The notes beneath the pieces were generated by a model. It was not told where the DNA came from and ran no database searches. It saw only the letters and a program-made list of their open reading frames with translations. Position numbers and translations under genes: made by a program. Source: Dinochytrium kinnereticum (Eukaryota; Chytridiomycota; Chytridiomycetes; Chytridiales; Chytridiaceae). Taken from it: a DNA stretch of 15,357 bases. The DNA is taken from the NCBI GenBank assembly GCA_027604005.1, contig JADGJT010000475.1, forward strand, positions 1 through 15,357, given 5' to 3'. Shown here in pieces: positions 1,816-11,694 of the stretch. The stretch's first letter is position 1, and each line of letters opens with the position of its first letter.

Positions 1816-4800
1816 ATGGACAACAACGGTCACTGGGGCATCCTGCGAGGCCCTTCGCTGCTGGACGGCAAGTTCCGGAAGAAGGGCAACGACAGAGGGT
1901 AACAGCGTCTTGCCGTCTTTTCATCCGTTTCAGCTATTCGTTTCATAGATCTGAGCGTTCGTTTCCTAATCCTTTGAATCATTTATCTTCAGCATCTGGC
2001 ATACTTGGAAACGGCAGTCATCCTTCTTCAAGCTTGCAGCGTTGATCATTGCAGTCTGCCTCACCCTCGCTTTCTTCGCATCCAAGCAAGACAACGCTCA
2101 GAGTGATGGCACACTCTTTTCCAAGATACCGTCAAAGAGAAAGGGAACCAAGGATTCATGCAGGAACATGGATGTTGCGATGCCCCGCATTCCGCAATCC
2201 ACTGACGATGGCAGGCTTGCTCTCGTTACTGGTGGAGCTGGTGAGACTCTCGCATTTTTGTTATTGTTGCTGTTTAAGTGTATACTCATTAATAACTCTT
2301 TCTCTATTGTTTTGGTACCTCACCATCTAATCAGGCTTCATCGGATCTAATGTCCGTCAAATCGATTCATTCACGTTCCTTACTCATAAACTAACTCCAT
2401 TTTCCCGCATAGCTGGTTGACCGTCTTTTGACCCTTGGCTACCGAGTCCGCATCCTTGACAACCTTTCCACCGGGTCCATTCGCAACATCCCCATCGACG
2501 ACGAGAAAGTCGAGTTCATCTTTGGTGATGCCACCAACCTCAATGTCGTTGAAAGCGCTGTCAAAGGAGTCGACACCATTTTCCACCTTTCTATACAACG
2601 AGATCGTGCCGCCTCCTCCCCTCAAAAAATCCGGAATTTGATCGAGTCTAATACTTTGGGCATTTGGAGTGAGTTCCTGTCAATTAGAGTTCTGCAGCTA
2701 ACATTTCAAATAGATGTGCTTGAGGCGGCTAGTGCTCATAATGTTTCGAAGGTTGTCTACACCAGCTCTTTTCTATCCCATGGAGATGTGTTAAACAAGA
2801 CGAACGAATCGGGTGCTCGCATCGTCTCTGAATTCGGGGGAGAGTACTTTGTTAAGTCCCTTCACACTCTTTTCAAGATTCCTACTGGTAAGTCTTTTCA
2901 AGTTCTTGCCGTTTTAAAACAATTCACAAACCATTTTGTTTGTTTTGAAGTCATTGCCAAGCTACCCTCAGCATACGGGCCTCGTCAGGAGGACCGAGGT
3001 GTCCTACGACTCGACAAAGACCCTGGGGAGTTTCAAAACGATGACATCAACGCATCCTACGACTTTATTCATGTCTATGACATTGTCGAAGGTCTGATTT
3101 TAGCAGCTCAAGAACCCGCTGCGGCTGGTGAATCGATCGAACTTGGGTCAGGTATCGCCGTGAAAATCAAAGACCTGAAAGACAAGTTCTCCCTTACTTC
3201 TTCGTCTTTTGGACGCTCGGATGAAGGCGGATTCGTCGCTGATACTTGCAAGATGAAAAAGATATTGGGGTGCAAATCTCAGAGGCAGATTGAGGAGGAG
3301 ATGCCCAGACTTTTGAAGGCTGCTAGTAAGGGGGATGTTTTCGCTCAGCCTTGGTATGATGATAGGATGATGCGGTCGACTCCTTGGTTGCTTCCTCTTG
3401 GGTAAGTGTTTGTTTCATATCTAGTGCTTCGGTTGTTGAAGACATTTTGTAACTAACCTATTGAACAAAGCATGAAGCATGCTCTTCCCTGGATTGGGCT
3501 GACTGGAAAGCTTGACGAGCTCCTAGACCGAATTAATCCTGAGGACAAGACCATTAGCTTGGTTCTTTGGAATGATGAGCCTAGGTGGGCATCTCTTGCT
3601 TTTTCCACTTTTTTTCACGTTTCTTCTTTTCTTTTCTTTTCCTTTTCCTTCATCTCCTTTCCATTTTTCCTTTAATTGCTAACCACTTTTTTTTTTTAGA
3701 TTTCTGGTATTGAACCATATCTACTCTCTTGTTGCAAAGGGAAAGGCAGCTTCTTACATCATTGGTGCTTCGGGCGAGAACCTGAAGGAATGTCTTAGAC
3801 TTAACTTTCCTTGCTGGGATATTTCAAACGAGAAAGGAGATCTCAATAAGCCCCGCCTCCTAGCTCACTTGGCCCTAATTTTCTTAAAGAAAGGCTACAA
3901 CGTGCACCTCGGCGAGATGTGCGTACCTCTTTTTAACAATCTATTCTTGTGTTAAAATCATATTTAGGAACTCGGTGTATCAAGGAACCATCAAGACCGC
4001 ATACGGAAAATTTGAGAACGCCGATGTTGTCCTCAAGCAAAACGTATGTGGAGTTTCTAAACCCTTAACGCTTTGCTAATTTTATTCCCTCCTCAGCTTG
4101 ACTCACCTTTCCAAATCCACAACGAGAACGCTTTTATCAAATCCAACCACCGGTCTATCCACATGTTTGATACTCTTTCCACAAACGCCAAAGACGAAGG
4201 ATTCTTTGAATCCCTCAACTCCATCCAAGACACATGGGCAAACTGTTTCGATCCCCAGCAGTGCTCTGAGATCAACAGCAAGGATTCCCGCGCCTCACTC
4301 GCCCTCTTTTTAAATCCGATGCAATGCACTCCGAGCTTGTTCCACCCTGATCAGGAGGAAGATAGGTACTTCCTTACCTCGGCTTGCTTTGAACAGGATG
4401 GCGACCATAAAGTCACGTTTGGGAGCCAGAAGGGCTGGCTTATTCGTGAGTGCTCTGGCGATGCCGATGCATGCAGTCTTCATCAGTATGTTCCAATTGA
4501 ATGGCTACAGTCCCCAAGCTTCATTCGTCAGTTTGGCCCACACGGTGACCCTCCTGCTTTCATAATGAACTGGACACCGTCGTACCTTGCGGATGTCAGT
4601 GTTCAGAAGCTTTTGGAAGCGCCGTGGTTGGCTCCGCGGAGGCAGAAGATTTTTGAGTGGCAGGGACATCATAATAGTTTTGATCAGATGTTGGAGATTC
4701 AGGCTGTTCAGAAAAGGATAAGCTTGATCTACTTTAATAAGGGATTTTGGAAGGTCGCTTCAAACTGCCTTCATTCTATGGTGAAGTATGGAAAGGCACC

Positions 4801-9757: not shown

Positions 9758-11694
9758 TCACGCCGTGGCAACCGCCTTCTCTTCCTGAGCAAGTGTCCTC
9801 TCAACAACCTTTGCAGCTTTCACAGACACCTTCTCAGCGGCTTTAGCAGCCTTCGCCTCAGGCACCAAAGTCCTCTCATCGTTCCTTCTAGTGTTTACCC
9901 AGTTCGGGTTGTGGAGGGTCAACTCTGGCGCACCGTAGAGGATGTTGTCGACAGACTCGACGCCGAGCATGAACGAGTGGTCTTGGTTGGCGACCTCGTA
10001 TTTCCACGATCCAAAACGACCTCGAGACCAGATCTCGAGGTTCTGTAGCTCGGGGAGGATGACGGCGAGGTGGGAGTCACGGGTCAGCGAGGGGGTCGGG
10101 TAGCCGTGATAGAATTTGCGGTGGTAGACGGAGACGATCTCGTCTGTGGGCTATTTTTAATTGGGTAAAGCGGGTTAGCCGTTGTGCGTGCAGCATAATG
10201 GAAGCAATAGCCAAATGAATGATATGTGCGGAGGGGAAAACTTACCAGGAGAAGAGAAGTGTTGATGCACCCTTGAATGGTCTCCTCGATAATACGCTCC
10301 AAGTCAACAGGCTTAACCTTTGACTCAGAAACCTCAAGCATGAGTGACCAGTAGGGACCCGACTTCTCCTCCTTTGACACCTCAGCATCACTTGAGCCAG
10401 CAAGCCTCATAGTGGGAAGCTTGACGTCCTGCTGAGGCTGGTTGAAGGGCGAGTAGTTGGAGAAGATGGTGGCACGGTAGAAAGGCGAATCATCTTCGGG
10501 GAAGTAGAGCCAGCACTTATCGTCGATGCGCTCCGGGCGAGTTCCACGGATTCCGATACCAATCACATGGGTGGATGAGAAGATGAGCTGCGAAGCGTGC
10601 TCGATCACACGGGGAACGGCGGGGGTGAGCATCTTTGAGAGGTCATCGACGGGCATGGTGCTAAGAAGCTTCTTGTAGCCGATGGTTCGACCATCGTTGA
10701 GAGTCACGATCTTCTTCTCGTGGTCAACGCTAGTGACGGACTTGCCAAGCCTGAACTTTTCTTGAGGAAGGGTGTTGGCGACGGCCTTCCAGATGCCATG
10801 GGTTCCACCACGGGCCGGGAAGCGGAAGGTGGCGTTGGGACCCCAGTTTCCGGCAACCTTGTTCATGACGACGTTTGAGATGGCGAGCTTCAGATCGGGA
10901 GCGGCCACACGCTCACCGAGCCAGCTGCATTGCATCTGATGTGGAAAAAAAAGGCAGGTAAGAAACCAAGCCTCCAAGATAGATAGCAATGGAAAGTGAA
11001 CTTACGTATTTGGGCTCAATGGCCCAGACCTTGAAGTTATAGGGGCGCATGAACAACTCGGCAAGACCCTCACCCATGTTCCTGACGATCCATTCATCAA
11101 AGTTCTTGGGAGGGGACCTGGAGACGATGGAGGTCTCAAAAGCGTCGATCATGCCGGTGAGGGCCTTCACCTGGTCCTCCTTGGGAAGCATCGACACGTT
11201 GTTCTGTATTGGGATGGATGTGTTAGTCTCTGGCATGGACTAAACAGGCCTCATGTTAAACTGTACCTGGTAGGGGTAGGGAACCCAGCTACCACGGGAG
11301 CGAACGTAAGAAACACGCTCGTGAGTGAACCAGTCGTCGCTCTCGGGAAGGGCCTCGTCGAGCACGTTGTCAAAGTACTTATAGTGGGAGAAGATCTGGA
11401 GGGAGCGGGGCGATCAGACAACCCAATTCAAACGTCATCAAGAGCGAAAAGATGTTGACTAACCACATGGCCTCCAACGTCGAACAGGAAACCCTCGGGG
11501 GTGGTGTCGGTCGAGGCGAGGCCTCCAGGCTCCTCAAAGGCATCAACGACCAACCACGAGTCGTACTTGATGTGGTCTAACCTCTTTGCAGCGCCGAGAC
11601 CCGTGGGGCCAGCACCAATGATGAGGACGTCGACGCTCTCGTCGACGTTGACCTGAGGTCTGTCGGTCTTGCTCAGCTTTGACTGGGAAAGCAT
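9758..11694 (-). CDS. glfA: UDP-galactopyranose mutase (FAD flavoenzyme)
   Basis: Five exons on the minus strand: 11694-11464, 11395-11267, 11203-11006, 10935-10246, 10150-9758; 546 residues. The enzyme converts UDP-galactopyranose to UDP-galactofuranose in the cytosol using reduced FAD. Landmarks of the eukaryotic type are all present: the FAD motif [12 protein letters not shown] (25-36), the His loop GGHVIFSHY (74-82), [13 protein letters not shown] (187-199) with the substrate Arg, [16 protein letters not shown] (215-230), [12 protein letters not shown] with Arg316, [28 protein letters not shown], and [20 protein letters not shown]. Exon 1 begins at the only ATG that leads into the FAD motif. 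It is somewhat longer than the A. fumigatus enzyme (510) because of an Ala/Lys-rich C-terminal extension. One loop reads GGTHGIW where fungal enzymes I know have GGTGGIW. The symbol is borrowed from Aspergillus; the identity is very secure. Confidence 0.96.

Follow-up and report, generated by a model that had tools for sequence, protein, structure and literature searches.

Many fungal walls contain galactofuranose (Galf), and transporters and transferases usually are seen as separate proteins. Mammals make no Galf (PMC5583699). In Aspergillus, the mutase gene ugmA (glfA) is clustered with ugtA (glfB). The UgtA transporter was defined by this clustering, is located in the Golgi and is exceptional among nucleotide-sugar transporters in possessing eleven transmembrane helices, and loss of the transporter removes Galf (PMC4630932). 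The fungal galactofuranosyltransferases found in the literature that was searched are from Aspergillus and Fusarium. UDP-Galf synthesis in Chytridiomycota already is predicted in a published survey (PMC8092308), and therefore the presence of a mutase in a chytrid is not new. The window analyzed here is a complete 15357-bp contig of the aquatic chytrid Dinochytrium kinnereticum (Chytridiomycota). As in the Aspergillus ugmA-ugtA cluster, a UDP-galactopyranose mutase gene (gene C) lies beside a gene for an UgtA-type transporter with eleven helices (gene B). Unlike that cluster, a domain of the DUF3431 family follows the eleventh transmembrane helix (TM11) of the transporter, and a gene for a protein with short-chain dehydrogenase/reductase (SDR) and GT77-like glycosyltransferase domains (gene A) adjoins the pair. 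The locus probably is a Galf donor locus in which gene C makes UDP-Galf, gene B imports it into the Golgi and exposes a lumenal DUF3431 domain of GT-A fold, and gene A acts in the same pathway.

The mutase gene and its UgtA-type neighbor

The three genes were spliced by hand and fall exactly within 1816-11694 (Table 1). GT...AG borders are present at all 20 inferred introns (11 in gene A, five in gene B and four in gene C), and the spliced products match the deposited proteins HDU67_007526, HDU67_007527 and HDU67_007528 with 100% identity over 100% of their length, which confirms the placement of the genes in the preliminary description. The locus tags run consecutively. Genes A and B are in tandem with 605 bp between them, and gene C is convergent with gene B with 676 bp from stop codon to stop codon. 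The co-occurrence of the three genes in this interval, with the fusion in gene B, is far above chance.

Table 1. Genes and protein features of the locus (gene and exon positions in the window; residues in the respective protein)
Feature	Position	Strand	Description
Gene A (HDU67_007526)	1816..6089	+	12 exons, 1162 aa
Gene A transmembrane helix	residues 39-57		single, N-terminal
Gene A SDR/epimerase domain	residues 104-324		Pfam Epimerase (PF01370)
Gene A GT77-like copy 1	about residues 430-620		homologous to copy 2, BLASTP 3e-9
Gene A GT77-like copy 2	residues 781-925		Pfam Nucleotid_trans (PF03407), 53.4 bits
Gene A C-terminal tail			charged Lys/Glu/Ser repeats
Gene B (HDU67_007527)	6695..9081	+	6 exons, 639 aa
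Gene B exon 5	7876..8679	+	residues 269-536; TM9-TM11 and first half of DUF3431
Gene B TPT domain	residues 33-318		Pfam
Gene B TM11	residues 325-344		helices of structure model, counted by eye
Gene B DUF3431 domain	core residues 373-620		GT-A fold in predicted structure
Gene C (HDU67_007528)	9758..11694	-	5 exons, 546 aa

The product of gene C aligned with the UDP-galactopyranose mutase of A. fumigatus (3ukh) over residues 18-517 with a score of 785.7 bits, which upholds the earlier naming of the gene. Beyond reasonable doubt it is a eukaryotic-type mutase, with catalysis predicted from this homology, and it was the only mutase copy found by a protein search of the D. kinnereticum genome. The Pfam GLF model (PF03275) gave no match across the whole genome and none in the spliced gene C product at E-values up to 1. 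The model misses this eukaryotic mutase, and fungi could escape surveys that depend on it. Among the relatives of gene C, a mutase labelled as from the tree Carpinus fangiana (P0308) groups among fungal sequences at 66% identity and probably is fungal contamination of that genome.

The TPT part of gene B was compared with two UgtA-type proteins from Aspergillus, of which one is named a UDP-galf transporter by a source, and is 55.5-58.3% identical to them over 314-326 aa. Significant matches to UgtA or to gene B also were produced by three other TPT loci in the D. kinnereticum genome, but at only 19.7-28.8% identity. In a transporter tree of 47 chosen sequences and an outgroup, gene B sits among the UgtA-type proteins. 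Gene B thus looks to be an ortholog of the Aspergillus UDP-Galf transporter UgtA/GlfB with a predicted transport function, and the contrast in identities supports its preliminary assignment as a UDP-Galf-type transporter. The structure model has eleven transmembrane helices, TM11 included, and a hydrophobic segment detected by sequence scanning at residues 329-347 coincides with TM11. Among the 120 transporter matches listed, 99 are of 440 aa or less; 86 of these were scannable, and 85 of the 86 have a hydrophobic segment at the TM11 site. With the N-terminus in the cytosol, as in the standard topology, an odd number of helices implies a lumenal C-terminus. Thus, TM11 should place the DUF3431 domain of gene B in the Golgi lumen.

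Linkage of the pair in relatives was judged from equal size of the longest contig listed for each gene, together with locus tags, by comparing 120 of 1242 transporter matches with 120 of 6436 mutase matches. Among the matches listed, 14 named species had both genes on contigs of stated size, and the sizes were equal in nine: Dinochytrium, Chytridium lagenaria, Gaertneriomyces, Synchytrium, Geranomyces variabilis, Geopyxis, Caeruleum, Cladorrhinum and Penicillium canariense. The transporter and mutase of G. variabilis bear the tags HDU88_002339 and HDU88_002340, and the P. canariense pair is on a 9-Mb contig so that its co-location is weakly informative. Sizes were unequal in Siphonaria, Podochytrium, Irineochytrium, Thoreauomyces and Choiromyces; in three of these five, both contigs are shorter than 25 kb. 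A. fumigatus, although listed for both genes, was omitted from the count as its mutase entry lacks a contig. By these measures, the mutase and transporter genes are linked in further chytrids as well as in ascomycetes, and this part of the neighborhood that the preliminary description proposed to check is conserved.

The DUF3431 domain of the transporter

DUF3431 (PF11913) is known from stand-alone proteins to which no transporter is fused. A member from A. nidulans is predicted to be membrane-anchored and exterior-facing (PMC5519750), and a member from Aspergillus glaucus is induced by salt and was selected in Escherichia coli for salt resistance (PMC4212599), a phenotype that neither supports nor excludes a glycosyltransferase function. 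Gene B matches the same Pfam family at residues 435-567 with 33.8 bits, above the gathering cut-off of 25 bits. The possibility that the fusion was created by merging of two genes during gene prediction was rejected because the junction between TM11 and DUF3431 is inside one open exon (exon 5) and is shared by other species.

The DUF3431 domain of gene B is structurally similar to GT-A enzymes in the predicted model, from which a GT-A-fold, glycosyltransferase-like domain is inferred. A viral structure library gave no clear answer: an amine oxidoreductase of a pithovirus, a long protein, ranked first (E 7.3e-6, TMq 0.25), EamA-type transporters came next, and the weaker matches included glycosyltransferase-like proteins. 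The motif HxHxxxWH, which was defined here and is outside Pfam's definition, is present in all four canonical sequences compared and absent from all 16 sequences of the gene B type (B-type), and gene B reads HGDASGFL at this position. The candidate DxD motif in Dinochytrium, HGDA, is unconserved across the B-type alignment. A GRE block is present in 11 of 13 B-type sequences outside Dinochytrium and Chytridium, and a QF(I/V)VS-like block in most sequences. The core of the domain has diverged further in Dinochytrium and Chytridium, which read GGH where most B-type sequences read GRE. Pfam scores for DUF3431 were 24-46 bits in 12 scored B-type sequences, with no match in the B-type protein P0017, compared to 126-132 bits for three proteins of Geranomyces and Thoreauomyces and 79 bits for a viral copy. 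A DUF3431 tree separates the B-type from the Geranomyces/Thoreauomyces type with 99/97 support, although it is rooted on one viral sequence and carries a long-branch warning.

Elsewhere in the D. kinnereticum genome the only other DUF3431 signal (C507:5658-5789) scored 18.8 bits, below the cut-off, and contains internal stops. Among bacterial sequences in genome_contigs, 78 pattern matches yielded no confirmed relative. One DUF3431 scan of viral_contigs produced two loci. The one examined, L032:4977-5684 of an uncultivated viral contig, is a stand-alone canonical DUF3431 gene that retains HxHxxxWH and is inside a run of sugar-nucleotide and glycosyltransferase genes.

The preliminary description called the transporter-DUF3431 fusion unusual, but it is not confined to D. 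kinnereticum. The fusion recurs in chytrids and Pezizomycetes, including Chytridium, Gaertneriomyces, Geranomyces, Ascobolus, Tuber and Choiromyces, with the same domain order and the same junction after TM11 as gene B. Named B-type fusions are 36-76% identical to gene B with 88-100% query coverage. Unlike gene B, the Geranomyces and Thoreauomyces fusions (57-62% identity over 46% of the query) possess a canonical DUF3431 domain and a longer linker. The transporter tree follows taxonomy broadly. Separate clades of fused and unfused transporters were rejected, as the DUF3431 label needs at least six changes on the starred branches. This count is inflated because the seemingly unfused chytrid proteins P0004 and P0056 look by eye to be truncated models: P0004 ends frame-shifted where P0003 continues, and P0056 stops inside a DUF3431-like stretch. 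Neither one nor many fusion events is claimed.

Gene A and larger transporter fusions

The SDR domain of gene A has a Rossmann GxxGxxG motif in addition to its PF01370 match, but the catalytic Tyr and Lys of the YxxxK motif are replaced by R237 and E241. A second Dinochytrium copy reads HIVSE at this site, whereas YxxxK is retained in all nine other aligned sequences. Epimerase activity of the domain thus is improbable. Of the two glycosyltransferase copies, the first has E520-M-N522 in place of DxD and the second retains the motif (D845-A-D847), so that the second alone appears from these residues to be active. Like other members of PF03407, which we take to be GT77, copy 2 combines the Pfam match with DxD; unlike them, it is joined to an SDR domain and follows, in tandem, a copy that looks inactive. 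The fold prediction for gene A was poor (mean predicted local distance difference test score 47.5) except for the SDR domain and copy 1, and the structural comparison (VIA rows) spanned residues 91-413, with the glycosyltransferase copies outside that span. Gene A specifies a Golgi-type protein with a single transmembrane helix for which a role in the Galf pathway is plausible. Two ascomycete proteins of ~750 aa (P0129 and P0136) combine an SDR domain with intact YxxxK and a region that aligns to copy 1 of gene A without DxD; P0129 has no PF03407 match. To our knowledge this membrane SDR-glycosyltransferase family has not been described in print.

Further copies of two of the genes are assigned to D. 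kinnereticum: a second gene B (P0002; 87% identical) on a 3055-bp contig and a partial second gene A (P0122; 78% identical) on a 4803-bp contig. Both were absent from the results of searches of the D. kinnereticum genome assembly. They may represent a divergent duplicate, a haplotype or sequence from a second organism.

In Thoreauomyces (P0123) and Cladochytrium (P0124 and P0126), proteins that we know only from deposited gene models unite a TPT domain, an SDR domain, a GT77-like region and a GT43 domain in one chain. Identity in the TPT part of these proteins is 54-63% to gene B and 48-62% to Aspergillus UgtA-type proteins. Thus, an UgtA-type transporter, an SDR domain and a GT77-like region, which in the window are divided between genes A and B, are joined. 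Unlike gene A, these proteins retain YxxxK, and in them a GT43 domain at the C-terminus takes the place of the second GT77 copy. Inspection by eye and a hydrophobicity scan revealed one transmembrane helix between the transporter and the SDR domain; merging of neighboring genes is disfavored because two helices would then be expected. In Synchytrium microbalum, the UDP-Galf-type transporter P0013 (tag g02359, close in number to the mutase tag g02364) ends in a different domain with an IKLDDDT motif. This domain had no Pfam match and, at E-values up to 1, resembled no solved structure in sequence. A search of the D. kinnereticum genome, which lacked a positive control, found no relative. A GT-A-like nature is a guess from the motif.

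A probable Galf donor locus and competing explanations

In the proposed mechanism, gene C would convert UDP-Galp to UDP-Galf in the cytosol, as strong homology indicates, and gene B would carry UDP-Galf into the Golgi lumen, as suggested by orthology to UgtA/GlfB and by conserved linkage. By its topology, TM11 would position DUF3431 in the lumen at the exit of the transporter, where the domain may transfer sugar or hold a partner transferase such that import and use or handling are tethered in one protein. The SDR and first GT77-like domains of gene A look inactive and probably act as a scaffold. The second GT77 domain, which retains DxD, probably acts as a sugar transferase of this glycan pathway, and the sugar may be Galf, as adjacency and the transporter-SDR-glycosyltransferase fusions suggest.

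The preliminary description is firmly supported for genes B and C, and its view of gene A is plausible. The mutase-transporter pair of the three-gene set recurs, but conservation of the full set was not supported: among relatives open to comparison, none had an A-like gene and the mutase on one contig. The A-like genes of Gaertneriomyces and Allomyces macrogynus lie on contigs other than those of the listed mutases, and in Chytridium lagenaria, the closest species, no relative of gene A was among the 120 of 130 matches listed (proteins of 0.55-1.75 times the query length). These observations weigh against the three-gene scheme and favor one in which only the mutase-transporter pair is functional and gene A is a chance neighbor in another glycan pathway, for example, in xylosyl, arabinosyl or galactosyl transfer by GT77. 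The loss of motifs from the SDR domain and first glycosyltransferase copy is in keeping with this explanation. Moreover, GT77 members use several donors. However, the three locus tags are consecutive, and gene A is tied to the pathway because A-like SDR-glycosyltransferase modules are fused to UgtA-type transporters in Thoreauomyces and Cladochytrium. The role in the set that the preliminary description gave to gene A thereby gains independent support from two chytrid genera, although not from shared contigs, and a chance neighbor is considered unlikely. That gene B carries another nucleotide sugar, and adjoins the mutase through inherited gene order without shared function, is improbable. TPT-family proteins have many substrates, but gene B is highly identical to the Aspergillus UgtA family, whose loss removes Galf (PMC4630932), and the linkage with the mutase extends across phyla.

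It is possible, if somewhat doubtful, that the DUF3431 domain of gene B has degenerated into a GT-A relic without catalysis, which in the lumen serves the docking or retention of the transporter or partners other glycosyltransferases. The low Pfam scores of the B-type sequences and the uniform absence of HxHxxxWH from them fit a relic, and a 2015 study left open how UgtA is retained in the Golgi (PMC4630932). Nevertheless, the domain occupies the same site in chytrids and Pezizomycetes, with shared GRE and QF(I/V)VS-like blocks. Beyond the Galf donor locus itself, it is suggested tentatively that the UDP-Galf transporter is a recurrent fusion hub and that DUF3431 is an unrecognized family of glycosyltransferases, probably one that uses Galf or a Galf acceptor. 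The lumenal C-terminus would have acquired glyco-enzyme domains more than once, namely the two DUF3431 types, the SDR-GT77-GT43 module and the IKLDDDT-bearing domain in Synchytrium. Import and transfer would be channelled in one polypeptide, and TM11 of UgtA could be the attachment point or a relic of fusion.

Among the open-licence papers that were searched, none was recognized that covers this locus, a fusion of a nucleotide-sugar transporter with DUF3431 or an enzymatic activity of DUF3431. The mutase-transporter pair is known, and the fusions, as far as found, exist as automatic annotation only. Of the new claims, the fold of DUF3431 and the pattern of a fusion hub are the strongest, and both rest on prediction. 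Should this reading of the fusions hold, they would offer a directly testable instance of physical coupling between a nucleotide-sugar transporter and a lumenal glycosyltransferase. DUF3431 then would gain a fold and a likely class of function, the eleventh helix of UgtA would gain a reason, and the mutase-transporter linkage would extend to chytrids.

Outside the three genes, the window contains an intact ankyrin-repeat frame of 642 aa at 12448-14376 on the plus strand (Ank_2, 165 bits). A 201-bp segment just downstream (14603-14803) is 86% identical to positions 13261-13451 of this gene and is a partial copy of it. An open frame at 249-1061 on the minus strand has a sub-threshold likeness to retrotransposon gag (E 0.26).

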